From Orobanche coerulescens (Eukaryota; Streptophyta; Magnoliopsida; Lamiales; Orobanchaceae), in assembly GCA_033398695.1 (NCBI GenBank), contig CM065802.1, positions 82,756,096 through 82,820,095 of the forward strand: 64,000 bases of DNA. The letters run 5' to 3'. The translations under genes were made by a program, and so were the position numbers. A model generated the notes under the pieces. That model searched no databases and was not told the origin of the DNA. It saw nothing but the letters and a program-made list of their open reading frames with translations. Position 1 is the first letter of the stretch, and the number at the start of each line of letters is the position of its first letter. Below, piece after piece: positions 7,979-59,323 of this stretch.

Positions 7979-9411
7979 TGATCGCTTGGATTCGCGTAGT
8001 ATGGTTTTCAAATCCGATCAATTTTAAAATTTGTAAAACCTCGGAGTATTTCCAAGGTGTCGAACCCAAGGAATTGATGTGTCGAAAATAAAGGAATTAA
8101 CTCTACTCAAAATTTGACTTGCTATTTAGGAATCCGAAAAATTGTTTTGATTCTAATTATCTAATTTTAAAAATCGAAGAACAAAAATTAAATAAAAGAT
8201 GAAATATCTAAATTAAGCAAATAAAGCAAATTAGGAAGATAAAATCACAAGTCGAAAGGTAATTGATCCTAGGGTAGTATCATCTAATTGAGTTCACACA
8301 ATTCGTTCACTTGATTCCTTCTCCCCAAAATTTAATTCAATCCTAGAAATAATCACTCGGTCGATCTAGAATTCTGTCAAGGCAACCTAGAAAGATAGTT
8401 AATTAAAACCCTTTTCCCGTCAGAATCAAAGAATTAAAATCACTTAAAAGCACCAACTTATTTATCTATGATTTATCTTTCTCCGCTAGGTCTCAAGATA
8501 AAATCATATTGTGTATCAAGTATTTCCACTAATCAATTACTCCTTAGGACAAAATCAATTAGCTAACATGCATCGATTAAGGGCCCTTTAATCTAACATG
8601 AGATTTAACACAACTTGAACACGAGCCTAGGATGAAAGGTCAAAAGGTAATCAAAAGAACATCATGTGAACATCAATTAAAATTACTAACCCTAGAATCA
8701 ATCAATGAATTAGCCAGACATACTTGAAATTAAACAAGAAATAGATGGAGAATGCATATTATTAATATGAAAAGAGAGATTACAACCCGTTCGTATGAAC
8801 TCCGAGTCTTCAATAATAATTCTCCTCCAAAAAGTTCTTGAATCAAAGGAAAAAATCTTGCTAAAAAGTGTAAAAATCTGCTTAATATGATAAAAGAGTG
8901 ATAAAGGCTGATGGAAGATGATCCAAGATGATCAAACTAGGTCTAAAAACAGGTTTATATAGCCTAAGGGGTTAAAAATCCCGATTAGCCCTAATCTAGG
9001 AAATAAATAATATCCAAAAGAGTCAAAATCCGTCCAAAAACGAGAGCCCGCTGGGAAGCCTTTCGGCCTGGCCTATCGGCCGATAGGCTGGCCGATAGGT
9101 GGTTCGTCGATTTCTTCACTCGTTAGGCAGGAGCTCCTTTCGGACGGCCCTATCGGCCGATAGGCTGGCCGATAGGGTCTTCTGTTTGGCGCAAAAATCC
9201 GTTTCTTCGTCCGTTTGACTCGACTCTCGGTCCTTTGTCTCGTTTTGGGTCCTTTTGGCTCTAAAAACCTGCAAACACACTAAAACCAACCCAAACGCGT
9301 AATACGGCTCGACTAATCATAAATAAGCCCAATACGAGCACATTAATCACGAAACGAGATAAAAACCTAGTATAAAATCCTAGAAATAAGTGGTAAAATT
9401 ACCACTTATCA
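7979..9411 (-). repeat. 5' LTR of the Athila-like element
   Basis: 1433 bp, bounded by TG and CA in both orientations (plus strand TGATCGC...CTTATCA). The minus-strand start carries a near-perfect inverted repeat around ATAAGTGGTAATTTTACCAC (9388-9411). U3 holds the palindrome array and a TATA box at 8954-8961. No gene lies within it. Confidence 0.85.
8954..9176 (-). promoter_or_regulatory. Athila LTR promoter: palindromes plus TATA
   Basis: Perfect CTATCGGCCGATAG copies at 9073-9086 and 9150-9164, each followed by a half-matching CTGGCCGATAG about 12 bp on, lie about 100 bp upstream of TATATAAA (8961-8954, minus strand). Confidence 0.6.
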
Positions 9412-10299
9412 ACAGCCAAGGGTCACGGAAGCATCTACTCAGGAATACTCCGGACAATATCACATAAACTCCCAAGGCAGCAGCCGAGGGTCACAGAAGC
9501 ATCTACTCAGGAATACCCCGGACAATATCACATAAACTCCCAAGGCAGCAGCCGAGGGTCACAGAAGCATCTACTCAGGAATTCTCCGGACATAGGTGCC
9601 ATTTAGGTCTTATCCCCTAACACATTTCCATTCGGGTACCATATAGGTTTTATCCCCAACACATCGGCCCCACAGATTACGTCTCAAAGAAAGAGCACAT
9701 CACAAAACGTAACAAACAACGGTGCACATTCACCGCATAAAATATCAACACACACATGTAATAATGCAACATGATGATTATCATAATCTAACAATATTAA
9801 TTTACCTCAAGCTGGAGACGCTAACCTTTCCACGACCAACCGCCCTGAACGAATACACGGTTTATCTCACAATCCAAAATGATGTATAGTCCATAACTAA
9901 TACCCAACCACCATCCCGAGTTCAACATAGACACGATAACTAACCTTGATATACAACTTCTCATGCAATAGACCAAATTATAATTCACATTCCCATTTCC
10001 ACTAGACATCCTTAAAATCATATACATTATGATTTATCTTAGTCCAAAAATACCATACATACCACCATTCCGACAATTCATATATTCCATAATACCATTG
10101 CTATATGAATCATAAATGAAATGAAAGAAAATCATTTATTAACATTATGAATTGAGCAAGCATAACTTGCCTTGATACCAATTCGACGAAGCCACTATCA
10201 ATCCCGCCGTCTCCGTCTACAAGCTCCGCAGCACAACGGTTAACTTCAACAATCACTAAACGCAACCTAATGCAATAATTAATTAACGATACGTTCAAT
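9412..10299 (-). repeat. V LTR fragment (duplicate of 47071-47958)
   Basis: Matches the V LTR at a constant offset of 37659 to its end. It begins with three copies of a 68-bp tandem unit (CCCAAGG...CTACTCAGG...) up to about 9600. It is cut on the left by the Athila insertion and on the right by U at 10300, at the same base as in the second copy. No coding potential. Confidence 0.85.
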
Positions 10300-10621
10300 T
10301 GTAACACCCCCAATCCACTCAGGGATATTACACGCCGTAGGCCCTCTCCTCGAGGATCTACCAGGCTGATAACTAAAATCAAACATCTAAACATCGCCTT
10401 TAAGGCTAAAATGACTCAGTAGACCGACTTGGTCTTTCAATAATAACATACAACTCAATTCCAAACACATACCCACGCATGGGTCAAAATACAATAAACT
10501 CCCGTACAATGGGAAAAAGATACCGCAGCGGAAAAGAAAATACAACTGGACCAATACGACATCAACGGAACCTCGTGTGATTAGTATCGTTCATCTTTCA
10601 TCATCCTTCGTGCCGACCCTG
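10300..10621 (-). repeat. U LTR terminal fragment
   Basis: Starts TGTAACACCCCC after TTCAAT, exactly as at 47959, and is cut at CCCTG (10617-10621) by the Z1 LTR. It is the 3' terminal 322 bp of a U LTR in minus orientation and contains the GCAGCGGAA motif. Confidence 0.85.
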
Positions 10622-12745
10622 TGTAATACCCGGTTGTAATTCAGTCATTATCATTCAGTAATTTCATTCGGTGATTGTCACTCAGTGGATTTTCACTCAT
10701 TTATAATCATTCATCAATCATGTTCGTTCACCGTGTTCACCGTTCGGAAAAACTTCGAGTTGTGTATCGTTATTGTTCATTGTTTCAACTTTCCTCATAT
10801 GAGTTCGACTTTGTTAGATCACCATTAATTTTTGGTGACTTCAAAAATTCTAAATCTTTGCAATATTATAGAAGATCGAGTTAGCTTTCCAATGGTTCAA
10901 ACGGTGAGTCAATCGGAGTCCGGACGAGAGAGTTATGGTCGTTTTAGCTCACCCGCTCATTTTTCAGTTATTGGCCGATCACTGCCGACCGAACTCGGCC
11001 GTGTCGTCCGACACGGCCCGTGCCGTACTCGTCCGGAAATGCCGAAGTCTCTGCCCACAGGACTCGACCGTGTCGTTTGGCACGACCGAGTCGAACTCTT
11101 CCGGATAAGCCAGAACCGACTGCCGACACGCCCGACCGTGTTCCAGGACACGGTCGAGTCATGCCGAGTCGCTGTCGGACGGGTCACTATCGGAAGGCCC
11201 TCCACGCCACGACCGTGTCAAGCAGGACACGGTCGAGTCCCTGTCGGCCAGCTGTGCGACACGACCGTGCCGATCGGCACGGGCCGTGTCGATCGGCACG
11301 GGCCGTGTCCGGCAGGGCAGTCAACCCCTATAAATTCATTTTTTGAGCATTTCAGCTCATTTCTTTCCCTTTTCTTCACCTACAACCGAGAGAGAGAGCT
11401 TTAGGGAGGGTTTTTCCTTCACAAATCATTTGAGTGTTTGATTTTATTCATCTCCTTTCGATCGTGAAGCCCGGACAATCAATCCAACGCGTGTTCTACG
11501 GACCTTAGTACTTGAATCTCCGAAGGTAACATCTCTAGAACCCTACTTTCGAATAATTGGGTATTTTGGGGTTTTTGTCCGATTCTTTCCGTTTTGTTGA
11601 TAGATTCTTGATGAATATGATTAATCTTGTTGCTATCATAAATTTTCCTACGGATTCAGAGTATATTTTCATAGTTTTGCAGAATCGAGAGGGTTTGGTT
11701 GTGGTCCGCCCTCGTTATTATTTTGTGCGAATATACACGAATCGTAGGCGGGTTTTCGGGTGTATTCCATTTCCGTATTCGACTAGAGTTGGTTGTAATT
11801 ATGTTCTTCGAATCGTTAGGTTTGGTTCCGTTGATTCCTAGTGTTCGTCGGTGATTATCCTTTCCGTTCGTTGCGTCATCAAAATATTCAAGGCAAGTAA
11901 TTCTTGGAAACCTTTATGCTTAATGTGAAATGGTAATGTATATTGTGTGTGCTTTACTCACCTCGGGAGGGTCCGACGGGGCCTCGAGGGAATCTATGGC
12001 TTCGTCCTGGATTCATGAGTTTAATTCGCTAGCCAGCTCGGGAGGGTCCTTAGAGACCTCGAGTGGGATTCGTGGCTTCGTCCCGGTCCTAGGTGACGTG
12101 TGGTGCTTGACTTGTTTTATGAATGTGGCCAGCTCGGGAGGGTCCTTAGAGGCCTCGAGTGGGATTCGTGGCTTCGTCCCGGTCCTAGGCAAATTAATTG
12201 TGACTGTTTGTTTTCGGAAAAGACATGTCTTATTTTGGTCTTCGAAATGATATTGGTGCATGTACTATGAAATGTGTAAGCGATTGGTTTGCCTTGATTA
12301 CTTGTACTAGCGTAATTGCTAACCCCTCTGGGGACCCGTTTTGGGGAAATTCTTGTTATGGATTTCACGTTATGATCATCCGGACGGCGGGCACAGACAA
12401 GACGAGGACGTTGGCCAGGGTCGTTGACATGTGCATTTGGGTCTTTCTATTTCCTTGTCCATTTTGAATTGATTGTTCTAATAATTATAAACTTATAGAG
12501 TGTACTCGCGAGTACTTAGGCTTTTCAAATTTAAACTCCGTGTTGTACTACTTTTAAATTGTTACATTGTTGGTTGATGATCATTTCGCCGGTTGCTCAG
12601 GCGTAACTTTATGTCTTATAATCAAATGTATGTCCTCGCTAACCGGGATGGTTAGTCGAGTGGAGTTTTCTTGTTTGTAGCCTGATGGGTCCCATGTGGG
12701 GGTCCACGGCGCTGTAATATACTCTGAATATCTTGGGGTGTTACA
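10622..12745 (+). repeat. 5' LTR of Z1
   Basis: 2124 bp from TGTAATACCCGG to GGGGTGTTACA. It contains the GACCGTGTC dyad array (about 10990-11320), TATAAAT at 11329-11335, a GA-rich leader, a donor AAG|GTAAC at 11525/11526, and three irregular copies of a CTCGGGAGGGTCC block (11962, 12037, 12133). It is nearly identical to the 5' LTR of Z2. Confidence 0.9.
10990..11335 (+). promoter_or_regulatory. Z1 U3: inverted-repeat array and TATA box
   Basis: About twelve dyad units built from GACCGTGTC / GACACGGTC and relatives, spaced roughly 18-21 bp within groups. They include an 18-bp perfect palindrome CCGTGCCGATCGGCACGG (11265-11282). The last unit lies about 25 bp before TATAAAT (11329-11335). 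Compared with Z2, one 19-bp unit is duplicated. Confidence 0.6.
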
Positions 12746-15527: not shown

Positions 15528-15756
15528 TGTAATACCCGGTTGTAATTCAGTAATTATCATTTAGTATTTATCATTCAGTCATTATCACTCAGTAATTTCA
15601 TTCATTATTGATCATTTGTCACTCATATTCAGTCTTGGTATTCATCATTCAGAGTAATTGTATCGTGTATCAATCGTCATTCATCACTAATTTGATTGGA
15701 GTTTCGTGCCGTGTTTATCATCATTGTCATTTTCGTTGCGAGCTGTGCGTGAGGAG

Positions 15757-16316
15757 TAGCGCACGCTACATACTCCTTTTAGCGTACGCTAATTGGGTAT
15801 AGGTAGCGCACGCTACCACTCAGCTTTAGCGCACGCTAAGGTTGCCCTGGCCGCACCGTAAGGTACCGGACTGCAGTGAGATTATTTGTAGCGCACGCTA
15901 CGAGTGGTAAGTAGCGCGCGCTAACGGGTTGTAGTAGCGCACGCTATATGTGTGTAAGCGCGCGCTAGGGCGGATCGAGGTTGAGTCCGGTGGCTCTTTT
16001 GCCTTTGAATTAATTCATAGCGCACGCTATGTGTTGTTGTTAGCGTACGCAACCGATATATTAGCGCACGCTAAACAATGGTTGTAGCGCACGCTATCGG
16101 GTCGAATCGAGGTCGTGCGGTTTTACGGACTCGATCTTTGGGCATCAATATTTCGTTAGCGCACGCTAATAATGGGTCTTAGCGCACGCTAGTAGTATGG
16201 CCGTAGCGCACGCTACAAGAAGGTACGTAGCGCGCGCTACCGTATTCGGACAGTGGGTACTGGACTACCCAAATTACTCGTTAGCGCACGCTACGCACAA
16301 GGGCTAGCGCACGCTA
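15757..16316 (+). promoter_or_regulatory. W1 phased palindrome array, TAGCGCACGCTA x18
   Basis: Site starts are 15757, 15780, 15804, 15827; 15889, 15912, 15935, 15956; 16018, 16041, 16062, 16085; 16157, 16180, 16204, 16228; 16282, 16305. Within groups the spacing is 21-24 bp; groups of four recur every 125-139 bp. The TATA box (16329) lies 24 bp after the last site, in step with the array. Most sites have centre CA, some CG or TA. Confidence 0.8.
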
Positions 16317-16328
16317 ACCTGGACTGAC

Positions 16329-16511
16329 TATAAATTGGACAGTTTAGTCAGAGTTCGTCATTATTCATCTCATTTCATTCCTTCGGTAGTTTTGGGCGAA
16401 TTCGAAAGATTCGGAGAGGATTCTTCGAGGTGTAATCGTCAATCAACATCTTCAAGCTCATCTTTCGGATTAATTATCATTTCATCATCTTCATCGCATA
16501 GAATCAAAGGT
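16329..16511 (+). promoter_or_regulatory. W1 TATA box and leader splice donor
   Basis: TATAAAT (16329-16335) is followed about 175 nt later by ATCAAAG|GTATTAATC (donor GT 16510-16511). The same pair occurs in W2, W3, V, U and Z LTRs. Confidence 0.55.
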
Positions 16512-17959
16512 ATTAATCTCTTGGATCTAAAATTTCGGATTTTTGGGTTTTCCTTCCGATTTCTTCGTGTAAGCTTGGATTATCATTGGAATATGTTAGT
16601 TATGGATTATCTAACTTGGATAAATATATTCCTACGGATTTAATGGTTATTTTCGGAATTATTCCAAGAACCCTTGGGGTTGACTTTGGTTATTTTGGGG
16701 ATTTCCGATTGTCGTTATTATAAACATGGATTGTGGATTTCTATGAGATTATTGATGTCATTGATAATGTTTTGCTGGTTTGAATCAATCATGTTGGAGT
16801 TGGTTCGATTATTTGGGTTTGGTTTTAACCAACGGGTATCTCAACGTTTTCGTTAGAGTACATCTACGAGTTCGGATATTGTTGTATCGACGTTTGGGTC
16901 GGTTATGATCATATTTGAGTCGTGTATTGATCGGTTGTTGGTAACTATTGATGTTCAAGGTTGTTCGAGCGACCGACTTTTCATTTAGGACGTTGTTCGT
17001 GGAAGGACATTCTTCATCGGTATTGTGTAAGTTAATTCTCACTCGGTTAAAAGGATATTCATTCCTTTTGTTGTTGTTCATTCATAATCGTAACTCATTC
17101 ATCATTGTATTAACCGTATCAAAACTCGTCATTGTCAATTAATCACTTCAGTCATAAGGAACGACGGTTCCGATCATTTCATTGAGCTATCATTCATTTC
17201 ACCATCATTTAATCTTGGTGAGTCATTATTCATTTACGTAGTCACATTTGACATAAAGTGACATTCCGGGTCATCTTGGCGTGCGGTTGGAATGTGTAGG
17301 ATTTTCATGTCGGGCACAATTATGTCGTGTGATGGTTGTTGGCCTCACATTGGACTGTGCACACGAGTCGATTGCTTCGTGAGATCGATTAGGCACAAGA
17401 CCACGTGTGATGGTGGCTTGTGCACGGACACATTTCCATCCCGGACGTTGTGTGGCGCCATTCCTTTGAGCCGTTCTGATTGTCGTTTCTTATTGCATGT
17501 TTGATTGCATATGTTTCGACGGGTTAATTCATAATTTCAGATATCTCATGATTGTGTATTTTCAACCCTTGAGGATTGTTGTTACGTATGGCGGCCCGTT
17601 GGGGATCTTGTTTAGTCATGGCAAGGCTAAGGCACGGGAGAGCACGGTGACGGCGAGGAGTCCTGATGATACTAGTAGGGGGCCCCTCTTTTCGATCATT
17701 TTGTTTCTTTTATTTATTCAGCTGAGACATTCCGTTTGAATATTCATTTCACTCATTGTTGTATATTTTATCTCCATATAAAATATACTTGTATTGATAT
17801 CATCCTGGGTGTGTTGTATAAAACTCCTCATCGGAGTAATTGATGTTGTAATGTGGTTCGGTACTACATTTACCATGTAATTCATTCATTTTCATTCGCA
17901 CAGTGGGTCCCGATGGGGTCCACAAAGACCGTAATATCCGCCTAGTTTGGGGTGTTACA

Positions 17960-25366: not shown

Positions 25367-25375
25367 CAACCATGG

Positions 25376-34945: not shown

Positions 34946-34979
34946 TACACCCCCCCTTAAAAGAGTTTCGTCCCCGAAA

Positions 34980-36089: not shown

Positions 36090-36091
36090 TC

Positions 36092-39656: not shown

Positions 39657-39657
39657 A

Positions 39658-41593: not shown

Positions 41594-42579
41594 CTTTGAT
41601 TCGATGTGATGAAGATGATGAAATGATGATCAATCCGAAAGATGAGCTTGAAGATGATGATTGATGATTACGCCTCGAAGAATCCTCTCCAAATCGCTCG
41701 AAATCGCCCAAAATTACCGAAGGAATGAAATGAGATGAATAAATGACGAACTCTAACTAAACCGTCCAATTTGTAGTCAGTCCATGTTAGCGTGCGCTAG
41801 CCCTTGTGCGTAGCGTGCGCTAACGAGTAATTTGGGTAGTCCAGTACCCACTGTCCGAACACGGTAGCGCGCGCTACGTACCTTCTTGTAGCGTGCGCTA
41901 CGGCCATACTACTAGCGTGCGCTAAGATCCATTATTAGCGTGCGCTATCGAAATATTGATGCCCGATCTTCGAGTCCGTAAAACTGTCGACCTCGATCGG
42001 CCCGATAGCGTGCGCTACAACCATTGTTTAGCGTGCGCTAATATATCGGTTGCGTACGCTAACAACAATACATAGCGTGCGCTATGAATAAATCCAGTGC
42101 AGTCCAGTAGCCACTGGACTCAACCTGATCCGTCCCTAGCGCGCGCTACTCCACACATATAGCGTGCGCTACTACAACCCGTTAGCGCGCGCTACTTACC
42201 ACTCGTAGCGTGCGCTACCTATAACCCACCTGCAGTCCAGTACCTTCTGGACTGCAGCCGAGGTAACCTTAGCGTGCGCTAAAGCTGAGTGGTAGCGTGC
42301 GCTACCTATACCCAAATAACATATGCTAAAAGGAGTATGTAGCGTGCGCTACTCCTCATGCACAGCTCGCAACGAAAATGACAATGATGATAAAACGGCA
42401 CGAAACTCCAATCAGATTAGTGATGAATGACGATTGATACACGATACGATTACTCTGAATGATGAATACCATGACTGAATATGAGTGACAAATGATCAAT
42501 AATGAATGAAATTACTGAGTATCAATTACTGAATGATAAATACTGAATGATAATTACTGAATTACAACTGGGTATTACA
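40145..42579 (-). repeat. W3 5' LTR
   Basis: About 2435 bp. The terminus reads ACTCGTAACACC where W2 has ACTCTGTAACACC, so the first T of the LTR is missing in a CTG context. Palindrome array 41788-42351. The TATA position reads TACAAAT (41775-41769) rather than TATAAAT, so this copy's promoter may be weakened. Confidence 0.9.
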
Positions 42580-43615
42580 CAACCGCCCTGAACGAATACA
42601 CGGTTTATCTGACAATCCAAAATGATGTACAATCCATAACTAATACCCAACCACCATCCCGAGTTCAACAACGACACGATAACTAACCTTGATATCCAAC
42701 TTCTCATGCAATAGACCAAATTATAATTCACATTCCCATTTCCACTAGACATCTTTAAAATCATATACATTATGATTTATCTTAGTCCAAAAATACCATA
42801 CATACCACCATTCCGACAATTCATATATTCCATAATACCATTGCTATATGAATCATAAATGAAACGAAAGAGAAATCATTTATTAACATTATGAACTGAG
42901 CAAGCATAACTTGCCTTGTTACCAATTCGACGAAGCCACTATTAATCCCGTCGTCTCCATCTACAAGCTCCGCAGCACAATGGTTAACTTCAACAATCAC
43001 TAAACGCAACCTAATGCAATAATTAATTAACGATACGTTCAATAACAATCAACAACCGAAATAACCAACTAATCAAACTCGATGGTTCAACGACATCTCG
43101 ATCATACGAAACCAAACCGTATCAACTCTTAACAATACGAACACAAGCCGAAATTCGGTGTTCAATGGTCCTAACAATGTCTTCAACATATATACTTCTC
43201 ATAACATCATGAATCGCAACAAACTACCAAGAACATCGAGAATACTACAATTCCATAATCATAACAACATAATCGAATCATTTGATCACCAATTCATTAT
43301 CTTCCCCTAACAAAATTCTCGTAAATACCAAGAATCATCACAACAATATCAATTCAACCATCATTCATACGAAAACGTGTAGAATTTTCCAAGTTCTACT
43401 CATTGAGACATTTCATCGAACACTTTGAAGGCATAGTCCAATTCAATCGATTATTCAAAGAAATACTCGAATTCGTTGCACAAAACTTCAAGAGTATTGA
43501 ATGATTACGAGTATACAATCAAGTTCTATCAATAATCTGAATCAAAACGAAGCAAATCGGCCAAAACACCAAGAAACCTCAAGAACATCCAAAAACCAAA
43601 AGCTCATGTGTTCTT

Positions 43616-43779
43616 ACCTTCGATCCGGGTGGAGGATGATGTTAATCCATGATTCCAACTTCCAAAACATGTTGTTATAAGTTGATTCTACTCAAAACCA
43701 TCATCTTTGCCGAAGAAATCACGGAAAGAACGAAGAAAAATGAAAAATGGCAAGGATGACTCGGTCTAGGCCTTATATA
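43616..43779 (-). promoter_or_regulatory. V TATA box and splice donor
   Basis: Minus strand TATATAAG (43779-43772), and about 155 nt downstream GATCGAAG|GTAAGAAC, a near-consensus plant donor (GT 43617-43616). It is present although V encodes no gag. Confidence 0.55.
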
Positions 43780-43799
43780 GGCCGAGACCTGCCGGCACC

Positions 43800-44336
43800 T
43801 TACGTACGTAACCGGCGGGTCCTTACGTACGTAGCCGGCCGTGGCCTACCTTACTGTCCAGTTCGTTCGGCACCCTTACGTACGTAACCGGTAGCTCCCT
43901 TATGTACGTAATCGGCCATTACGGCCGTAACCGGCCATTGCCTCCGTACGTAATCGGCCAGTCCTAGCCCCCAGCGAGTCACTGCCGACCATGGTCGGCC
44001 ATCCCAGCGAGTCACTGCCGACCATGCTCGGCCACTACAGGTCCTCTCGGCCACGACTCGGCCAGTCGCCCCGTAACGTACGTAACACTTATTCCGTTGC
44101 GTACATAATATGTACATTGACTTGCTACAGTACTATACTCGTATTACGTATGTAATACACCCTGTATAACATACGTAACTCCATCTGTTGACTCACCTGT
44201 CCACATCCGCACCGAAAGGTGCCGACATCGGGCCCAACTGTCCGATTCCTCTTGTTACGTACGTAATACCTTACGCATAACGTACGTAACACGTACCACT
44301 TAGCGTACGTTATCTCAAAGTCTTAACGTACGTTAA
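43800..44336 (-). promoter_or_regulatory. V phased palindrome array, TTACGTACGTAA
   Basis: Sites at 43800, 43823; 43876, 43900, 43919 (TTACGGCCGTAA variant), 43943; 44073, 44097; 44144, 44167; 44255, 44278, 44301, 44324. Spacing within groups is 19-24 bp, and exactly 23 in the last group of four. Spacers hold GCCGACCATGGTCGGC (43984-43999), a perfect palindrome. Confidence 0.75.
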
Positions 44337-44704
44337 CAGATCCATACTTAGCCATTTCCAGCAATTCCTGTCCAACGTCTCGACATAACAAATGTGAACA
44401 TACGACAATACTGAACACGTATACGAAATCCCAAAAATATTCTCATACGATACGTCTGATGCACAATACCCTCAATTACAACTGTCGACCAAGTACGGAA
44501 ATCATACAAATACTCATACGGTATATCCGACATCGAAAACACACCGAGCATGTAATATCCTAGAATCAACAATCTCAATAGACATACTGGCACGACTGTC
44601 ACGGTTTCCAAGATTATCCACTCATATCGTGTCGGTCCCACTCTGTACAGTGCAACTTAGATAAAATAATGCGAAAATTCATAGTGAAATTCTAGGATAT
44701 TACA

Positions 44705-48280: not shown

Positions 48281-50385
48281 TGTAATACCCGGTTGTAATT
48301 CAGTCATTATCATTCAGTAATTTCATTCGGTGATTGTCACTCAGTGGATTTTCACTCATTTATAATCATTCATCAATCATGTTCGTTCACCGTACCGTTC
48401 GGAAAAACTTCGAGTTGTGTATCGTTATTGTTCATTGTTTCAACTTTCCTCATATGAGTTCGACTTTGTTAGATCACCATTAATTTTTGGTGACTTCAAA
48501 AATTCTAAATCTTTGCAATATTATATAACATCGAGTTAGCTTTCCAATGGTTCAAACGGTGAGTCAATCGGAGTCCGGACGAGAGAGTTATGGTCGTTTT
48601 AGCTCACCCGCTCATTTTTCAGTTATTGGCCGATCACTGCCGACCGAACTCGGCCGTGTCGTCCGACACGGCCCGTGCCGTACTCGTCCGGAAATGCCGA
48701 AGTCTCTGCCCACAGGACTCGACCGTGTCGTTTGGCATGGCCGAGTCGAACTCTTCCGGATAAGCGAGCCGATCGCTGACACGCCCGACCGTGTTCCAGG
48801 ACACGGTCGAGTCATGCCGAGTCGCTGTCGGACGGGTCACTATCGGAAGGCCCTCTGCGCCGCGACCGTGTCAAGCAGGACACGGTCGAGTCCCTGTCGG
48901 CCAGCTGTGCGACACGACCGTGCCGATCGGCACGGGCCGTGTCCGGCAGGGCAGTCAACCCCTATAAATTCATTTTTTGAGCATTTCAGCTCATTTCTTT
49001 CCCTTTTCTTCACCTACAACCGAGAGAGAGAGCTTGAGGGAGGGTTTTTCCTTCACAAATCATTTGAGTGTTTGATTTTCTTCATCTCCTTTCGATCGTG
49101 AAGCCCGGACAATCAATCCAACGCGTGTTCTACGGACCTTAGTACTTGAATCTCCGAAGGTAACATCTCTAGAACCCTACTTTCGAATAATTGGGGATTT
49201 TGGGGTTTTTGTCCGATTATTTCCGTTTTGTTGATAGATTCTTGATGAATATGATTAATCTTGTTGCTATCATAAATTTTCCTACGGATTCAGAGTATAT
49301 TTTCATAGTTTTGCGGAATCGAGAGGGTTTGGTTGTGGTCCGCCCTCGTTATTATTTTGTGCGAATATACACGAATCGTAGGCGGGTTTTCGGGTGTATT
49401 CCATTTCCGTATTCGACTAGAGTTGGTTGTAATTATGTTCTTCGAATCGTTAGGTTTGGTTCCGTTGATTCCTAGTGTTCGTCGGTGATTATCCTTTCCG
49501 TTCGTTGCGTCATCAAAATATTCAAGGCAAGTAATTCTTGGAAACCTTTATGCTTAATGTGAAATGGTAATGTATATTGTGTGTGCTTTACTCACCTCGG
49601 GAGGGTCCGACGGGGCCTCGAGGGAATCTATGGCTTCGTCCTGGATTCATGAGTTTGATTCGCTAGCCAGCTCGGGAGGGTCCTTAGAGGCCTCGAGTGG
49701 GATTCGTGGCTTCGTCCCGGTCCTAGGTGACGTGTGGTGCTTGACTTGTTTTATGAATGTGGCCAGCTCGGGAGGGTCCTTAGAGGCCTCGAGTGGGATT
49801 CGTGGCTTCGTCCCGGTCCTAGGCAAATTAATTGTGACTGTTTGTTTCCGGAAAAGACATGTCTTATTTTGGTCTTCGAAATGATATTGGTGCATGTACT
49901 ATGAAATGTGTAAGCGATTGGTTTGCCTTGATTACTTGTACTAGCGTAATTGCTAACCCCTCTGGGGACCCGTTTTGGGGAAATTCTTGTTATGGATTTC
50001 ACGTTATGATCATCCGGACGAGCGGGCACCTGGACAGTACGAGGACGTTGGCCAGGGTCGTTGACATGTGCATTTGGGTCTTTCTATTTCCTTGTCCATT
50101 TTGAATTGATTGTTCTAATAATTATAAACTTATAGAGTGTACTCGCGAGTACTTAGGCTTTTCAAATTTAAACTCCGTGTTGTACTACTTTTAAATTGTT
50201 ACATTGTTGGTTGATGATCATTTCGCCGGTTGCTCCGGGCGTAACTTTTTATGTCTTATAATCAAATGTATGTCCTCGCTAACCGGGATGGTTAGTCGAG
50301 TGGAGTTTTCTTGTTTGTAGCCTGGTGGGTCCCATGTGGGGGTCCACGGCGCTGTAATATACTCTGAATATCTTGGGGTGTTACA
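48281..50385 (+). repeat. Z2 5' LTR
   Basis: TGTAATACCCGG to GGGGTGTTACA. TATAAAT 48963-48969; donor CCGAAG|GTAAC at 49159/49160; the CTCGGGAGGG block is repeated three times in 49580-49825. Matches 10622-12745 closely. Confidence 0.92.
48640..48969 (+). promoter_or_regulatory. Z2 U3 dyad array and TATA
   Basis: GACCGTGTC/GACACGGTC inverted repeats, for example CGACCGTGTC-AAGCAG-GACACGGTCG near 48870, end about 15-20 bp before TATAAAT (48963). One 19-bp unit fewer than Z1. Confidence 0.6.
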
Positions 50386-50618
50386 GAAATGGTATCGGAG
50401 CTCTAGGTTTATGGATACCTAGGCTTGTTGGTTATTTGGGTCTAGTCGCATTTGTTTTGCACATTGTCACACCGCTGCCAGCATCCCAGTACTTCCAGTG
50501 CTCGTAAGTTTTCTTATTCGGCTCTTTTGTTTCTTGCATTGTATTTCCACTTTTGAATCGTAGTTGCTTTTCCTCCCTTACTCATCATCGATATACTTCT
50601 GTTATCTCTCAACTTCAG
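49160..50618 (+). other. Predicted leader intron of Z2
   Basis: Donor AAG|GTAACATC in the LTR leader and a pyrimidine-rich acceptor CTCTCAACTTCAG|T (AG 50617-50618), one base before the gag ATG. Removal would delete U5 and PBS (50390-50401). The Z1 acceptor reads CTTCG, without the AG. Confidence 0.55.
50390..50401 (+). other. PBS of Z2
   Basis: TGGTATCGGAGC, initiator tRNA-Met type, four bases after the LTR. Confidence 0.88.
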
Positions 50619-50619
50619 T

Positions 50620-51830
50620 ATGGATGCCGGAGGAAACCGTGGTCGTGGTCGTGGACGCGGCCGAGGACGTGGGGCAGCCGGTGGGGCGACCACGTCGCAT
50701 TCTTCGAGGCCGGCGTGCGGTGACCGTCACAGTCATGCTTCTTCTCAGGAGCGCGCCGATCTTGGTATTGCGGCTGTTATGCAGCAAATGGTTAACCAGA
50801 TGGCAGCTATAGCTCAGGTGGTCCAAAACCCCGATCAGGCCCATGCTAGTCGGGGCGGAACGGATCGTTGGCTTCAGGATGTCATCAAGATGCATCCTCC
50901 CCAGTTTTCAGGAGCTTCGGACCCGATCGGCTGGGAAGGGTGGATCAAGGAGATATCCAAAGTATTCACTGCTACCAACTGCCCCGAGGACCGTAAGGTC
51001 CCTATTGCTCAATACTTTCTCACGGGAGATGCTACAGATTGGTGGGAGGCCGTTGGTCCCAAAGATCATGTTGCTTCGTGGGCCGAGTTTCAGGAGTTGA
51101 TGGAGACCGAGTATTGTCCATGGCCGGTCAGACAGGCTCGAGTGCATGCTTTCTTTGATGCTCAACCACGGGATATCCCCGTATCCCAAGCTATTGCCGA
51201 TTTTAACAAGGAGTTGGGTTATGTGAAGACCCAAGTTGTCGAAGAGAGCGACAAGATTTTCCATTTTTCCAGGAGAATGAAATTGTCCATTCGGGACTAT
51301 ATGTTTGGGCTCGTCTGTACTACCTTGAAGGATTATCAGAGTCGAGCTCTTGCTTATGATATGTCGGTGACCGCTAGCGATTTGGCTTGCGAGAGCAAGA
51401 AACAGAAGTCGGTCGGAAATTTTTCTGGTCCCAAGAGTGGAGGCCAGCAGAAATCTCAGACTGCAAATATTTCTACGGGCGGTTCGGCTCGTTTTTCTGG
51501 GAGCTTTCAGAGTGCCTCCAGAACCGTCGTCCGGGACCCCAGATGCTTTAACTGTGGCAAGCCAGGCCACGTGAACCGGGATTGTCCTCGTCCACCTTTG
51601 ACTTGTCATACTTGTGGTCAGTCGGGCCACAAAGCTTCTTTTTGCGAGAAGCTCAGACAGTTTCGCGGCGCCCGTTCTGCACTTATGGAGCCGAGTGTGA
51701 ACCAGGGCTCATTTGCTCCGCCGCCTCCACCGAGTGCCGGCCGAGGTAGGGGTTGGGGTCGACCCGCTAGAGGAGGAGCTTCCAGTGTCGGCTCCGCCCA
51801 GCCGCGTATATACGATATGAGGAGGCCGAT
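50620..51830 (+). CDS. Z2 gag
   Basis: Open from ATG 50620 through the whole gag (436 codons to 51930, the last ones shifted). Residues 5-20 are Gly/Arg repeats. The capsid domain at about 75-215 has GWEGWIKEISKVFTATNCPE and TDWWEAVGP. Two CCHC knuckles lie near residues 309-342: CFNCGKPGHVNRDC and CHTCGQSGHKASFC. Packages element RNA in virus-like particles. The start is supported by the acceptor at 50618. The frame breaks near 51840 just before protease. Confidence 0.88.
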
Positions 51831-51845
51831 GACCCAGCAGCTACT

Positions 51846-52364
51846 GTGGCGACAGGTACCGTTCATATCCATTCTCATCCTGTCGGTGTGCTTTTTGATT
51901 CGGGTGCTACGCATTCATTCATTTCTCTAGAGTGTGTACGCCGTTTGAGTCTCGACTGCTTGTCACCTTGCGAGCCTTTCATCGTTAAACTTCCTAGCGG
52001 TGATAGAATTGTCGGTGATCGAGAAGTCTGGGACTGTTATGTGATTATTTGTGAGAGGGCTTGGCTCTCTAATCTTATTGTTGTGGGTATCGAGGGTGAG
52101 GATTTGATTCTCGGGGATGATTGGCTCGAGCGGCATGGCGCGATCATGAACTACCGCACGAGAATCATCACTATGTTAGCCGAGGACGGCACCGAACACT
52201 CTTTCGCAGGGCGAAAGAGAAACCAGTTTGTTATTAACGCCTTGAAGGCGATGAAACTCTGCGAAAAGGGTGTACTGTTATCGGTGCTCGCCTTGAAGGC
52301 GGAGAATGGTGGAGTCGAGCTTTCATCGATTCCGGTCGTTAGTGAGTTTCTGATGTATTTCTGA
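51846..52364 (+). pseudogene. Z2 aspartic protease and linker
   Basis: VGVLFDSGATHSFISLECVR carries the D-S-G-A-T site; [19 protein letters not shown] follows. The open frame starts after a frameshift relative to gag. It ends at VVSEFLMYF, where Z1 keeps the frame ([15 protein letters not shown]): Z2 has lost a C in CCTGA twice. Confidence 0.85.
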
Positions 52365-53720
52365 CGAGTTGCCGGGATTGCCACCGCATCGTGAGGTTGA
52401 TTTTGATATAGATTTAGATCCGGGTTCATCTCCGATTTCGAAGGCGCCGTATCGCATGGCACCTTGAGAGATGTCGAGTTGAAGAAGCAGTTGAGTGAAC
52501 TTCTTGAGTCGGGGTATGTTCGACCGAGCGCCTCGCCTTGGGGCGCACCGGTCTTGTTTGTGCGTAAGAAGGATGGTTCACTACGTTTGTGTATCGACTA
52601 TCGTGAATGAACAAGGTGACCATCAAGAACAAGTATCCTTTGCCGAGGATTGGCGACTTGTTCGATCGGTGCGAGGAGCGCGGTATTCTCAAAGATTGAT
52701 TTGAGATCGGGTACTATCGGCTCCGGGTGAGGGAGTCACGTGCAGCGGCTTTTCGGACGAGATACGGACATTATGAGTTTGTAGTTATGCCTTTCGGGTT
52801 AACTAACGCGCCGGCGGTGTTCATGCAATTGATGAACAAAGTCTTTATCGAGTATTTGGATAAGTGTGTCGTCATCTTCATTGACGATATTCTTATTTAT
52901 TCGAGGAACGAGGAAGAGCATGCCCATCATTTGCGGGTAGTGTTAGACATTTTGAGGACCGAGCAACTCTATGCGAAGTTCTCGAAATGTGAGTTCTGGC
53001 TAAAGGAAGTGATGTTTTTGGGTCACGTGATTTCATCCGAGGGAGTTCGAGTGGATCCGCAGAAAATTGAGGCAGTGTTGGATTGGGCATTGCCCACAAA
53101 TGTGAAGGAGGTCCGTAGTTTCTTGGGTTTGGCTGGCTACTACCGTAGGTTCGTCGAGGGTTTCTCAAAACTAGCTCGACCACTTACACAGTTGCTCCAG
53201 AAATCCGAGAAGTTCGTTTGGACCGATGAGAGGCAGTCGAGTTTTGAGGAGCTGAAGAAGCGTTTGACTTCAGCCCCGGTTTTGGCATTGCCATGTGGCA
53301 ATGAGGGTTTCGCCGTTTTTAGCGATGCTTCGGGTCAGGGTCTTGGGTGCGTATTGATGCAGCACGGCAAGACCATTGCCTATGCGTCGAGACAGTTGAG
53401 GCCGTATGAGCTTAACTACCGTACTCACGATTTGGAGTTAGCGGCGGTTGTCTTTGCACTCAAGATTTGGCGTCACTATCTTTTCGGCTCTGCATGTCAG
53501 ATTTTTACCGATCATAAAAGTCTGAAATACATATTTACTCAGCGAGAGTTGAATATGAGGCAGAGGAGGTGGTTAGAGTTGATTAAGGATTATGACCTAG
53601 AAATCCTTTATCATCCGGGTAAGGCGAATGTCGTGGCCGACGCCTTGAGTCGGAAACCAATTGCGTTGCGAACGCTTGAGGTCCTTACGCCTCAGTCTGA
53701 GCTTCGGCGGGCTTTGATCG
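52365..53720 (+). pseudogene. Z2 reverse transcriptase-RNase H
   Basis: The N-terminal third (52365-52720) is shifted several times, though [20 protein letters not shown] is readable. From 52727 the frame is open: [16 protein letters not shown], catalytic [32 protein letters not shown]. RNase H then shows [39 protein letters not shown] and VVADALSRK, so all four catalytic acids are present. Confidence 0.88.
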
Positions 53721-55209
53721 GGTTAGATGTTGAGGTTTTGCTGCCTGGATCTGTCGGGCAACTTTGTGCCTTAGAAATTTCGTCGTCTTTGATCGATGAA
53801 ATTAAACTGAAGCAATTAGAGGATCCGATGATTACTCAAATCCGAGAGAACGTTCTTAAAGGAAAGTCTCCTGGGTTTGTGATTCACGAGGATGGTGTTT
53901 TGAGATTCGAGTTGGCTTTGTGTGCCGAGCGATCCAGGTTGCGGCAGGTATTTTTGCGTGAGGCCCATTCCACACCCTATTCCGTTCATCCTGGCTCGAG
54001 TAAGATGTACAAGGACACGAGGAGGAACTTCACGGTGGAATGATATGAAGGAGGAGGTCGCACGGTTGTGGCGAGATGTTTGACTTGCCCGAGTCAAAAT
54101 CGAGCATCGGCCACCTGGGTTATTGCGATCACTTCCGTTAGGAATGGAAATGGGAAGATATATCGATGGATTTCATTACGAGTTTGCCGAGATCGAGATC
54201 GGGCATGAATATGGTTTGGGTGATTGTTGATCGTCTGACCAAGTCGGCACATTTTCTGGGCATCAAGGACACTTGGGGCCCGGAGAAGTTGGCCCGTATA
54301 TTTATCGCACAGATTGTGAGGCTTCACGGTACTCCGAAGTCTATCGTTTCAGATCGTGATGGCCGTTTCGTATCACACTTTTGGCAGGCGGTGCATAAGG
54401 CGTTGGGTACCCGTTTGCATTTGAGTACCTCTTTCCATCCTCAGTCAGATGGACAGTCGGAACGCACTATCCAGACGTTCGAGGATATGTTGCGTGCGTG
54501 CGCTCTCGATTGGAGCAGCGACTGGGAGGAGCATTTGCCATTGATCGAATTCACGTACAACAATAGTTGGCACACGTCGATTCGGATGGCACCGTACGAG
54601 GCACTTTATGGGCGGCGATTTCGGTCACCGATTTGTTGGAATGAGGCGTCCGATTTAGTCGGGACCGAGCCGGATGTCGTTTTAGAGACGAGGCGGAAGA
54701 TAGAATTAATTCGAGAACGGATGTTGACGGCCCAGAGTGGACAGAAGTCATATGCCGATGTCCGTCGTAGACCTTTAGAATTCGAGGTGGGAGACCACGT
54801 TTTGCTGAAGGTGTCGCCAACGAGAGGAGTTTTCCGTTTCGAGAAGAAGGGGAAGTTGAGTCCGAGATTTATTGGACCCTTCGAGATTCTCGAGCGAGTC
54901 GGTGGGTTAGCATACCGTTTGGCGTTACCCCCGGCCTTGAGTCATGTTCATAGCGTTTTTCATGTTTCCCAGCTGAGGAAATATGTTCCGGATCCTAGTC
55001 ACGTCATCGATTATGGCGAGATTGATATTGCTGAAGATATTACTTTTGAGGAGCGTCCTTTGAAGATTTTGGAGCATCGTGAGAAACGACTGAGGCATAA
55101 GACCATCCCTTTGGTCAAAGTGCAGTGGGCAAGACACGGAGTCGAAGAGGCTACTTGGGAAACCGAGGATAGTATGCGGGAGAGTTATCCCGAGTTGTTT
55201 GACCCTTAG
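53721..55209 (+). pseudogene. Z2 integrase with chromodomain
   Basis: The N-terminus follows RNase H in the same frame up to [13 protein letters not shown] (54043), then the His/Cys zinc region is frame-broken. The core and C-terminus are open at 54166-55209: MDFITSLPRSRSG, VSDRDGRFVSHFW, DGQSERTIQTF, GPFEILERVGG, and a full chromodomain ([19 protein letters not shown]) ending YPELFDP. The chromodomain probably favours insertion in marked heterochromatin, which matches this locus. Confidence 0.88.
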
Positions 55210-55226
55210 TTTCGGGGACGAAACTC

Positions 55227-55243
55227 TTTTAAGGGGGGGTGTA
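55227..55243 (+). other. Polypurine tract of Z2
   Basis: TTTTAAGGGGGGGTGTA directly before the 3' LTR. Confidence 0.8.
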
Positions 55244-57338
55244 TGTAATACCCGGTTGTAATTCAGTCATTATCATTCAGTAATTTCATTCGGTGATTGT
55301 CACTCAGTGGATTTTCACTCATTTATAATCATTCATCAATCATGTTCGTTCACCGTGTTCACCGTTCGGAAAAACTTCGAGTTGTGTATCGTTATTGTTC
55401 ATTGTTTCAACTTTCCTCATATGAGTTCGACTTTGTTAGATCACCATTAATTTTTGGTGACTTCAAAAATTCTAAATCTTTGCAATATTATAGAACATCG
55501 AGTTAGCTTTCCAATGGTTCAAACGGTGAGTCAATCGGAGTCCGGACGAGAGAGTTATGGTCGTTTTAGCTCACCCGCTCATTTTTCAGTTATTGGCCGA
55601 TCACTGCCGACCGAACTCGGCCGTGTCGTCCGACACGGACCGTGCCATACTCGTCCGGAAATGCCGAAGTCTCTGCCCACAGGACTCGACCGTGTCGTTT
55701 GGCATGGCCGAGTCGAACTCTTCCGGATAAGCCAGAACCGACTGCCGACACGCCCGACCGTGTTCCAGGACACGGTCGAGTCATGCCGAGTCGCTGTCGG
55801 ACGGGTCACTATCGGAAGGCCCTCCGCGCCGCGACCGTGTCAAGCAGGACACGGTCGAGTCCCTGTCGGCCAGCTGTGCGACACGACCGTGCTGATCGGC
55901 ACGGGCCGTGTCCGGCAGGGCAGTCAACCCCTATAAATTCATTTTTTGAGCATTTCAGCTCATTTCTTTCCCTTTTCTTCACCTACAACCGAGAGAGAGA
56001 GCTTGAGGGAGGGTTTTTCCTTCACAAATCATTTGAGTGTTTGATTTTCTTCATCTCCTTTCGATCGTGAAGCCCGGACAATCAATCCAACGCGTGTTCT
56101 ACGGACCTTAGTACTTGAATCTCCGAAGGTAACATCTCTAGAACCCTACTTTCGAATAATTGGGGATTTTGGGGTTTTTGTCCGATTCTTTCCGTTTTGT
56201 TGATAGATTCTTGATGAATATGATTAATCTTGTTGCTATCATAAATTTTCCTACGGATTCGAGTATATTTTCATAGTTTTGCGGAATCGAGAGGGTTTGG
56301 TTGTGGTCCGCCCTCGTTATTATTTTGTGCGAATATACACGAATCGTAGGCGGGTTTTCGGGTGTATTCCATTTCCGTATTCGACTAGAGTTGGTTGTAA
56401 TTATGTTCTTCGAATCGTTAGGTTTGGTTAGTTGATTCCTAGTGTTCGTCGGTGATTATCCTTTCCGTTCGTTGCGTCATCAAAATATTCAAGGCAAGTA
56501 ATTCTTGGAAACCTTTATGCTTAATGTGAAATGGTAATGTATATTGTGTGTGCTTTACTCACCTCGGGAGGGTACGACGGGCCTCGAGGGAATCTATGGC
56601 CGTCACGGATTCAGGAGTTTGATTCGCTAGCTGCTCGAGAGGGTCCTTAGAGGCCTCGAGTGGGATTCGTGGCTTCGTCCCGGTCTAGGTGACGTGTGGT
56701 GCTTGACTTGTTTTATGAATGTGGCCGGCTCGGGAGGGTCCTTAGAGGCCTCGAGTGGGATTCGTGGCTTCATCCGGTCTAGGCAAATTAATTGTATTGT
56801 TTGTTTAGGAAAAGACATGTCTTATTTTGGTCTTGAAATGATATTGGTGCATGTACTATGAAATGTGTAGCGATTGGTTTGCCTTGATTACTTGTACTAG
56901 CGTAATTGCTAACCCCTCTGGGGACCCGTTTTGGGAAATTCTTGTTATGGATTTCACGTTATGATCATCCCGGACGGCGGGCACAGACAAGATGCGAGGG
57001 CGTTGGCGAGTCCTTGACATGTGCATTTGGGTCTTTCTATTTCCTTGTCCATTTTGAATTGATTGTTCTAATAATTATAAACTTATAGAGTGTACTCGCA
57101 AGTACTTAGGCTTTTCAAATTTAAACTCCGTGTTGTACTACTTTTAAATTGTTACATTGTTGGTTGATGATCATTTCGCCGGTTGCTCCGGGCGTAACTT
57201 TTTATGTCTTATAATCAAATGTATGTCCTCGCTAACCGGGATGGTTAGTCGAGTGGAGTTTTCTTGTTTGTAGCCTGGTGGGTCCCATGTGGGGGTCCAC
57301 GGCGCTGTAATATACTCTGAATATCTCGGGGTGTTACA
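55244..57338 (+). repeat. Z2 3' LTR
   Basis: 2095 bp, same layout as the 5' LTR: TATAAAT 55932-55938, donor at 56128/56129, CTCGGGAGGG blocks 56565-56785. The part from 56430 to 57020 has many small deletions relative to the 5' LTR, largely at CAG, CTG and CCTAGG. Confidence 0.9.
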
Positions 57339-57900
57339 CCCTGTGCTATGCTCCAAAACCTGAATGCAAAAATAGACATCCACCCCCCGAATACTCGGGG
57401 GTTAGCAAAACTCCACTGTTTTGCTAGTGCAAGTATAAATACGAAAACAAGCCATACATATCATACTCCACAAAAACAGAATAATCGCGAATATACTTCC
57501 CGAGAAAATTCACTTGATCAAACCATTCAAAACGTGAAAGGTAGGAAATAACCCAATGTCCATATTACAAAACATTTGATGATCTCGGGAGTTTAGAAAA
57601 CATTTGGGATTTAAGAATTCTAAAACCTTTCGAAAACATTTAGGGACACAGCCCAAAAGTCATTTTCCAAAATTCAAGTTCCGGTAACAATACGCAGGGT
57701 CCACAACCCATTTCACAAAACACGGGGTCCGTGACCCAAATCACAAATCACATGTTCCTAAGGATTATTCGTGTCCCGTGCTAACAAGCCACGAACCTCA
57801 GATGCTCCCGAAGAACAAACCCGAGTGAATAACCCAATAGGAAAAACATATCAAATCACATGTCTCCACGACACGAATATCACAACCAAACCACAACCAT

Positions 57901-58045
57901 AAGTTATCCCGGCATCGCGCTAACAAGCCACGAACCTCGGAGTCCCCGCAAGACATACCCGATGATAACCCCACAAGTTATCCCGGCATCGGGCTAGCAA
58001 GCCCCGAACCTCGGAGTCCCATGAAGACATACCCGTATTGGATAA
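57901..58045. repeat. 74-bp tandem repeat in U LTR
   Basis: Two units beginning AAGTTATCCCGGCATCG at 57901 and 57975, with a third, diverged unit near 57770. The counterpart in the U 5' LTR is at about 63163-63305. Confidence 0.75.
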
Positions 58046-59042
58046 CCCTACGGTTTCGCCCGACCCATACTAGCAAGTATGGATCCCGGAGATTCAACAA
58101 TCCTACCCGGAGGCACATCACATACAACAAGCACACAACAATAGTCGATTATCAAGACAAGCAACATTAAGCATCACAACCTCCTTTCAAAGGAGTAACG
58201 ACTAACATCACATCATGTCGAATACCCACCGAACAAACATACAATTCAATACACAATCCTCGGCAAACAATTATGGTCTATTATATTCACTCAATGCGAT
58301 TTTAACATCTCTCAACGTATGAAACTAACACACATATTCCGAGAACATATCCATTCACGAAGTATTCGAATTATCGTTGAAAGACAATATTTATCGAGGA
58401 CATACCGATCCTTTTTAATGTTCATTAAACATTAGATTTCGCATAAAATCATTTATTAATAATTATGCCGATGAAATATGAAATGTATGGGCAAGATACT
58501 TGCCTCGAATAATCGCAACACGGAGAATCGACCGAAGTAGGTTGACACGAACCGACTACGAACCCACCGACTCCACCGATCGCCAACTCGCGGTCATAAA
58601 ATACGAAGGACAAGAACAACAATGAAATGAATTCCATAACACGACTCAAAGCCGTTGAATTCAAAGAACAAATGACGAACGTTCAAGCGTTTCCCCCAAA
58701 ACGGCCAAGAACACGATTCGTTCCGTCAAAACCCGAAAATGGAATTCAAAGTTGAAATATGGATATACAATCCATAGAATATGTTTAACAACATCATTTA
58801 ACCTCAATAGATCCATCAAAAACGGATGAAAAACGAGATCGAGAACAAATCCCCTAAAAAGTCAATTTGAAGGAAATCAAGAAATATACTTCGATTCGAC
58901 GAACAATGGATTAAATGATGTTAAACACAATAATACTACCAAGATTAATCATATCCATCATGAATTAATCAACAACACGGAACGAATCGGACAAAAATGC
59001 AAAAACCCCTAAATTCACGAAATTAGGGTTCTAAGGAAGATT

Positions 59043-59323
59043 ACCTTGATTCGCTGGATCAAAGGATGATAACGGATGATTGATTGATGATATAACCTCA
59101 ATAACTTCGAGGATTTGTTGTCAAACAACATGGCTCCATGATGAACATACTCCCAGCCGCGGAAGAGAAGGAGAAGGAGGAGAAAAATGGCCAAAAACCC
59201 GTGTGCAGGGCCATAAATAGGCTGCACAGTGTGCCGCGGCCCAGCGGGAGTGTGCCGCGGCACAGGCCCAAAATGGCTCCCGGTGGTGGCGGTGTGCGGC
59301 TCGGCCGGAGTGTGCCGCGGCAC
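59043..59323 (-). promoter_or_regulatory. U promoter: GTGCCGCGGCAC palindromes, TATA, splice donor
   Basis: Palindromes or near-copies at 59231, 59252, 59292 and 59312 (pair spacing 20-21 bp). The minus-strand TATTTATG box is at 59219-59212 and the donor AATCAAG|GTAATC is at 59045/59044. GCCGTGACTCGGCGA-like repeats continue to about 59520. Confidence 0.6.

Follow-up and report, generated by a model that had tools for sequence, protein, structure and literature searches.

The question raised by this locus is what the arrays of CG-rich palindromes found in its nested retrotransposons are, and what reads them. The locus is a 64-kb stretch of Orobanche coerulescens (contig CM065802.1, positions 82,756,096 to 82,820,095; genome of 3.65 Gb), called the window below, which by self-comparison and end sequences is a nest of long terminal repeat (LTR) retrotransposons. 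A preliminary description of the window named six families, namely an Athila-like element (the label Athila comes from that description), Z, W1/W3, W2, V and U, and proposed that each carries palindromes of its own within a common architecture. Palindromes (dyads) upstream of a TATA box were identified in all six, and the common architecture is supported, being stronger than claimed in W1/W3, W2 and V. The palindromic arrays of the U3 region are real and far above chance; their step length, even grouping, helical phasing and register with TATA had been missed. The arrays of W1/W3, W2, V and their relatives are read here, with a probability of roughly 0.6, as promoter-proximal enhancers that would be recognised as double-stranded DNA by a sequence-specific homodimeric factor, probably a host protein.

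Palindromic arrays upstream of TATA

The W1 array (15757..16316, plus strand) comprises 18 dyads of the form TAGCG-NN-CGCTA in clusters of 4, 4, 4, 4 and 2, with the TATA box at 16329, 24 bp past the start of the last dyad. In W3, 15 TAGCG dyads were detected in the 3' LTR (34179..34716, minus strand), where TATA is also 24 bp past the last dyad's start, and 17 dyads in the 5' LTR (41788..42351, minus strand), where no TATA was found by the detector, the box being altered to TACAAATT. The W2 array (25376..25839, minus strand) contains 16 TTACG-NN-CGTAA dyads, mostly with a GC centre, in clusters of 2, 2, 4, 4, 2 and 2 provided that a 30-bp step counts as a gap, and its TATA box TATTTAAA at 25366-25359 is 21 bp past the last dyad's start. 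The V array (43800..44335, minus strand) is formed by 14 TTACG/TAACG-TA dyads, one of them GC-centred, in clusters of 4, 2, 2, 4 and 2, with the TATA box TATATAAG at 43779-43772. Dyad steps in W1, W2 and V are 19-24 bp.

The other families are built of different units. The Z array (10999..11309, plus strand; TATA at 11329) is composed of CCGTGTC/GACACGG half-sites with 4-6 bp between dyad arms; the inverted CCGTGTC half-sites are 11-13 bp apart and the dyads step by 19 bp, as do the final ones. In U, the dyad GTGCCGCGGCAC is located at 59312, 59252 and 59231 (59231..59323, minus strand; steps of 60 and 21) and a TATA-like sequence, TATTTATGG, is found at 59219-59211, 23 bp past the last dyad's start. 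The U3 of the Athila-like element contains two CTATCGG-CCGATAG dyads (9071..9176, minus strand), each accompanied by another half-site 12 bp further along, and the TATA box TATATAAA at 8961-8954. Half-sites of this element are also present outside its LTR (1909..2187, minus strand, and 6267-6346).

Palindromes had been placed 10-100 bp upstream of TATA. The W1, W2, V and Z arrays do start 10-20 bp upstream, but they extend to 330-570 bp, and the Athila-like dyads lie at 110-215 bp instead. The general form xCG-NN-CGx' given for most of the palindromes describes W1, W2, V and Athila and fails for Z (CCGTGTC-N4-GACACGG) and for U (CCGCGG core). The CpG observed/expected ratio is 1.59 in W1, 1.43 in W2, 1.53 in V, 1.32 in Z, 1.15 in Athila and 0.90 in U, the window having 1.16.

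A detector of at least three identical dyads per 600 bp identified nine arrays in the window, six of them with at least four dyads; the same detector identified none in 20 model shuffles and a single mirror-repeat array. The U and Athila-like dyads fall below the three-dyad threshold of this exact detector, with 3-4 and 2 full dyads, respectively. Outside the window, 20 stretches of 10 kb were taken at even intervals along contig C1: seven contain TAGCG-NN-CGCTA arrays and none a mirror array, and the TAGCG..CGCTA dyad was observed 89 times in this sample for 0.034 expected. The genome contains 499,704 pairs of TAGCGYRCGCTA (TAGCG-YR-CGCTA, Y and R standing for pyrimidine and purine) separated by 2-32 bp, with none for the reversed-pattern control, and 82 of the first 100 listed are spaced by 23-24 bp where 14-44 was permitted. 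Pairs of TTACGNNCGTAA (TTACG-NN-CGTAA) number 120,425 (control 3), and the Athila dyad CTATCGGCCGATAG was counted 15,405 times (control 0). A TAGCG dyad followed by TATAWA within 2-32 bp was identified 77,695 times on one strand and 88,545 times on the other (5 and 2 times for the respective controls).

Geometry of the arrays

The sample of LTRs beyond the window comprises the DNA downstream of 40 of 150 listed SH3_Tf2-1 matches, hand-picked across the score range; since these 150 were the top-ranking among 118,857 first-look candidates, the sample is biased. Lattice arrays were identified in 33 of these 40 3' LTRs and in none of 200 shuffles, the best motif being TAGCG-NN-CGCTA in 23 and a TTACG/TAACG type in 10. 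Of the seven without an array, L035 enters a reversed LTR end and L040 and L061 lose the U3 early, as judged by inspection of the sequence. Seven C1 stretches contain long direct repeats that were interpreted as LTR pairs; of these, five (L005, L007, L009, L010 and L018) have lattice arrays and L013 is of Athila type. Several LTR types lack arrays, and a wide lack of them, which the preliminary description had set against its own proposal, was found in part: nothing above the null was identified in five of six Ty1/copia 3' ends (LTR start recognised in only some), in L034, L053 and L059 (one other LTR type), in L039 (another), and in the LTR pair of L008.

Two further observations were made in sampled sequences. 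A second small cluster of TAGCG/TAACG dyads is located downstream of TATA, about 700 bp past the main array, in L025, L027, L036, L038 and L042. In L023 (190-475) there is an array of another kind of CG-rich palindrome (CACGATCGTG, CGTGGCCACG).

Geometry was described from 58 arrays of the W1/W3, W2 and V types. Of 381 short steps, 320 measure 22-24 bp. Clusters are even-numbered, mostly 2 or 4, in 181 of 226, a fraction of 0.41 being expected under independent steps. For the 168 linkers between 30 and 150 bp long, the period that fits best is 10.3 bp (R 0.43; 0.22 for the 99% null), and their mean phase of 0.4 bp corresponds to whole helical turns. When a single array was kept per motif-masked sequence cluster, groups were even in 70 of 82, and the 91 linkers left after making them unique per cluster gave a period of 10.5 bp (R 0.39, 95% null 0.28). 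The TATA box is 21-26 bp past the last dyad's start in 38 of the 44 arrays having one, and exactly 24 bp in 20 of the 44. The centre of the TAGCG unit is a YR step in 349 of 353 units. Such a kinkable centre and whole-turn spacing would fit a dimeric protein sitting on one face of the DNA.

Conservation of the units

In pairwise comparisons of copies from the same family, made for three families, the units show 5-6% divergence, and sites outside the array show 22% (non-CpG) or 42% (CpG); unit divergence is below linker divergence in all 54 pairs. A site was counted as a unit if either copy was within two mismatches, which somewhat lowers the unit figure; this rule is judged unable to account for a difference of four- to seven-fold. 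For the three least diverged pairs, among them the 5' and 3' LTRs of W3, unit and flank divergence are 0.012 and 0.014, 0.028 and 0.012, and 0.020 and 0.026. Since units are similar to flanks in these pairs, the constraint would be on the lineage as it replicates rather than on copies already inserted.

These figures bear on a neutral origin, in which slippage, conversion or template switching would spread arrays without any binding and the conservation would reflect recent spread. Arrays do differ between close relatives and the motif vocabulary does reappear in different backbones, as such a process would allow. However, unit divergence equals flank divergence only in the closest pairs, units are uniform yet the spacers between them look unrelated, and neither phasing nor the TATA register is predicted, making this origin very unlikely. 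Plain tandem duplication was rejected, as spacers within clusters are unlike each other by eye, and the self-propagating repeat process put forward in the preliminary description finds no support in that form.

Turnover and sharing of unit sequences

The six families had been considered unrelated and their motifs private. Neither view holds. Z, W1/W3 and W2 are not unrelated, because their coding DNA aligns (at about 70-88%) and their LTR starts are common. V and U are linked to these families through LTR ends of the same type (TGTAATA...GGTGTTACA); the U LTR start is 72-76% alike to those of L030 and L037, and RNaseH, integrase and SH3_Tf2-1 are present in L018, a stretch whose dyads are of V type. 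Z, W1/W3, W2, V and U look like a single Ty3-type lineage, putatively Tekay/Del-like. Private motifs were rejected for the TAGCG, TTACG and U dyads: a small dyad vocabulary is common to many families, and the U dyad occurs in both Ty3 and Ty1 elements.

Within this lineage, units differ even between closely related LTRs. In a tree built from 225-bp segments at the LTR start, W2, Z and W1/W3/L044 form one clade (100/100) with end branches of 0.01-0.06, and the units of this clade are TTACG-GC-CGTAA (W2), CCGTGTC-N4-GACACGG (Z) and TAGCG-YR-CGCTA (W1/W3/L044). A second group, formed by L030, L037, L060, L062, L063 and L064, is 82-91% identical across about 500-650 bp before the array; its units are TAGCG, TTACG-TA (L060) and TTACG-GC (L063) on similar lattices, L060 and L063 having a TATA-like sequence only. 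The layout of L026 (23, 23, 23, 125, 23, 45, 51, 23, 18 and 23, with a TATA-like sequence at +24) closely resembles the layouts of L031 and L041, to which it is related, but its units are TAACG, which by sequence is an in-place change of units. Mixed unit types are found inside some arrays (V, and one listed TTACG-pair place). Masked linkers do not align across families, so exchange of array modules and rewriting in place are not separable there.

The preliminary description offered three causes for such turnover. Recruitment of different regulators fits the motif changes on a kept lattice. Escape from a silencing factor is hard to reconcile with TAGCG-YR-CGCTA having been kept across diverged LTRs, though it is possible for the families that changed. 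The third, self-propagation, is treated above.

The U-type dyad GTGCCGCGGCAC forms a nine-unit array in L015 (6265-6543; steps of 21, 43, 67, 21, 24, 21, 49 and 21) and another of nine units in L070 (21, 50, 70, 75, 21, 51, 44 and 21; at most 3 in 20 shuffles). L070 is a Ty1/copia 3' end by its RVT_2 match. U-type dyads pair at 21 bp; in L015 and L070 the groups are not all even and no in-register TATA was seen. An initial result of no arrays in copia (0 of 6, exact arms) was overturned by the tolerant detector, which gave 1 of 6 through L070. In L013, which carries a Ty3 gag, three ATCGGCCGAT dyads were identified with steps of 13 and 77, a count not above the null.

Probable function of the arrays

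The unit of the lattice arrays is a two-fold dyad of 5-bp half-sites about a loosely specified, flexible centre. In the reading preferred here, two dimers would bind each roughly 35-bp pair cooperatively, and the bound dimers would help to recruit the basal machinery to the in-register TATA, usually about one step downstream of the last dyad. Selection for transcription would keep the units in lineages, and unit sequences would change either in place, in a concerted manner, or because families exchange modules of their arrays; the recognition sequence would in this way turn over while the spacing stays. U-type dyads, with their 21-bp pairs in Ty3 and Ty1, may represent a second factor used in the same manner. 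The presence of one dyad in both kinds of element points to a host rather than an element-encoded factor.

Several results weigh against this reading. Non-CpG palindromes of 10 bp are enriched as well (505 for 183.5 expected in the C1 sample), so palindrome excess alone is weak evidence; the evidential weight lies in dyad identity and spacing. A spacing of 23-24 bp is found in only 46 of the first 100 dyad-TATA pairs listed, and the TATA of V is 32 bp past the last dyad's start, off the usual register. No TATA was found by the pattern used in 14 of the 58 arrays, L060 and L063 included. Odd clusters amount to 45 of 226, some only through missed degenerate units. The 94 TTACG-type centres are TA in 45 and GC in 37, so that the centre is often not YR. 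A 23-bp lattice was sought in Z and in the Athila-like element and was not found, their dyads being arranged otherwise. Arrays are related by descent, and P values are overstated for this reason. Finally, RNA folding of four arrays is stronger than that of 100 shuffles each (z of -4.5, -6.9, -6.0 and -6.3).

The folding result could suggest a role at the RNA level, or host recognition, where hairpins in the 3' end of element RNA would feed small-RNA silencing or serve packaging or strand transfer, the spacing being a by-product. All four folded arrays are consistent with it, and the palindromes of maize Sireviruses are small-RNA mapping hotspots according to the accessible parts of PMC5311732 and PMC10760457. 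Any array of like dyads folds well, however; linkers follow the period of B-DNA, a TATA in register is frequent, and the half-site sequence itself is kept across families beyond what complementarity would demand. The B-DNA period, the fixed half-sites and the TATA register point to selection mainly on DNA, and an RNA-level explanation is considered unlikely. A part in small-RNA pathways, as put forward for the palindromes of Sireviruses, may exist alongside the DNA role.

An extension of the dimeric-factor reading, possible but doubtful, is that one promoter "operator code" is common to the whole lineage and partly to both superfamilies: dimer-of-dimers proteins would read phased dyad pairs with TATA in the next slot, and all the half-sites of an array would repeatedly be rewritten together with the geometry held. 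If so, the DNA would record successive shifts in protein specificity or in the paralogue used, and the half million TAGCG pairs would be among the largest one-factor site sets in any genome. Apart from this extension, fixed geometry with interchangeable half-sites offers a direct handle on how plant LTR retrotransposons stay transcribed under silencing, in that a bait of 35 bp, the expected footprint and the expected dependence on phase all follow from it. A concerted turnover of motifs on a scaffold that is itself conserved would, moreover, be legible from very many insertions in one genome.

Elements of the window

The Athila-like element has its 5' LTR at about 7985-9411 (minus strand), the W1 LTR (TGTAATACCC...GGGGTGTTACA) is located at 15528..17959 (plus strand) and the W2 LTR at 23738..26189 (minus strand). 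The W3 element (32525..42579, minus strand) sits within a V LTR with the target duplication CAACC, and the V 3' LTR (minus strand) is thereby divided into a left part (30070-32524) and a right part (42580..44704). The Z element (48281..57338, plus strand; 3' LTR from 55244) sits within a U LTR with the target duplication CCCTG and splits it, the right part of this U 3' LTR being 57339..60007 (minus strand).

Very little internal DNA, about 390 bp (44704-45096), separates the LTRs of the V copy, and a 45-bp tandem repeat lies within the long V LTR (30892-31205 and 45859-46217). A nested complex of 5.6 kb, comprising V LTR, U LTR end and Z, is present twice with 96.7% identity (9410-15003 and 47069-52667) and looks duplicated after nesting.

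A Pfam scan covered 20 of the 27 open frames of the window. Z and W contain Ty3-type gag, protease, reverse transcriptase (RT), RNaseH, integrase and SH3_Tf2-1, and the Athila-like element contains gag, RT and integrase; in V and U, almost no coding DNA, if any, is available in the window for such a scan. In Z the frames (50557-55209) follow the Ty3 order with integrase last, in keeping with a Tekay/Del-type chromovirus: gag, protease, RT/RNaseH, integrase and SH3_Tf2-1. A possible C-terminal chromodomain (PF00385), expected of such an element, scored E 0.0011 in W3 and 0.00036 in Z, both under the curated cut-off.

This content bears on the idea that a trans-acting or anti-silencing factor encoded by the elements themselves, similar to VANC, binds the arrays and lifts silencing, the motifs tracking changes of the protein. 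The fast change of dense non-coding motifs between related families does resemble that of VANC targets, as far as the accessible parts of PMC5735166 and PMC10398659 describe them. Against it, the frames of Z are gag-pol domains ending near the 3' LTR with no further Pfam match among the part of the frames scanned, no VANC-type (DUF1985-type) protein was identified among the 20 frames, no family search genome-wide having been made, and VANC motifs are one-orientation tandem repeats, unlike the dyads here. A factor of this kind is improbable.

CAG/CTG versus CG differences between copies

When copies are compared, 35 of the 104 multi-base differences are blocks reading CAG/CTG in one copy and CG in another; the GWC/GC class, which has a like composition, contributes 6. 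In the coding copies of Z the CG form accompanies a broken frame (12746-15003 compared with 50386-52667), and the same differences are found in the W3 LTRs and in L009. By sequence they are probably uncorrected miscalls at methylated CHG sites. Linker divergence is inflated as a consequence, array linkers being rich in CAG/CTG, and linker hypervariability was dropped as a biological result.

The same signature, with the broken frames of one Z copy, could suggest that the CG-rich dyads are themselves miscalled CAG/CTG palindromes. This was rejected for the strings tested. No full-length CAG/CTG counterpart of the tested dyads was identified in the window or in L001-L044, the only two half-matches (TACTGGCC/GGCCAGTA) both being of Athila type, and TAGCG dyads are still read in copies with intact CAG/CTG linkers. 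The dyads appear unaffected as far as tested, and an assembly artefact is extremely unlikely. Array linkers, for example in the W3 5' LTR and in the first array of L009, hold a second type of dyad, of the CAG/CTG kind (TCCAG-N6-CTGGA and GTCCA-N8-TGGAC), each enriched in the C1 sample (6 for about 0.1 expected).

Comparison with known systems

The U3 of Tnt1-type elements contains repeated, partly symmetric cis boxes that are bound by host factors and vary between subfamilies. These elements differ from the present ones in having few boxes and in being Ty1/copia, and we know of no phased lattice in them. The symmetry of Tnt1 boxes is mentioned in the accessible text of PMC2829016.

The VANC targets of VANDAL transposons, in the accessible parts of PMC5735166 and PMC10398659, are likewise dense non-coding motifs that vary by family and change jointly between relatives. 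VANDALs are, however, DNA transposons with their own VANC protein and one-orientation tandem motifs. No such tandem motifs were found here, where the units are dyads with spacers unlike by eye. By analogy, VANC targets are a model for motif-protein co-evolution and not a family in which to class these arrays.

Palindrome-rich, fast-changing U3 regions are also common to the 2016 study of maize Sireviruses, as reported in the accessible parts of PMC5311732 and PMC10760457, with stress on small RNAs and hairpins, whereas the geometric evidence here points to DNA binding.

The closest likeness is to the RM boxes of Sireviruses (Bousios et al. 2010, PMC2829016), described in the accessible text as palindromes that differ between Ty1/copia elements and lie upstream of TATA, with no binder named there. 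Both are high-copy, dyad-symmetric and apparently CpG-rich boxes clustered upstream of TATA (RM boxes define a CpG island, a trait to which the CpG ratios given above relate), and the extra clusters inside envelope-carrying elements are paralleled by the internal half-sites of the Athila-like element. The hosts of RM boxes are Ty1/copia, whereas a Ty3 lineage is the main host here; no Ty1/copia Sirevirus host was recognised in W and Z, which have Ty3-type RT, RNaseH and integrase with SH3_Tf2-1. Nearly all RM boxes have a CGG-CCG core, whereas TAGCG/TTACG half-sites occur here besides CGG types: the core is absent from TAGCG-YR-CGCTA and TTACG-TA-CGTAA, and CGGCCG is contained in the W2 and Athila-like dyads. 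No earlier report of a phased dyad lattice was found in literature searches with limited reach into subscription papers. The step of 22-24 bp, the even grouping, the helical phasing and the TATA register, not described for RM boxes in that accessible text, are what is new in comparison with known boxes, together with sister families that keep this geometry and change their half-sites.

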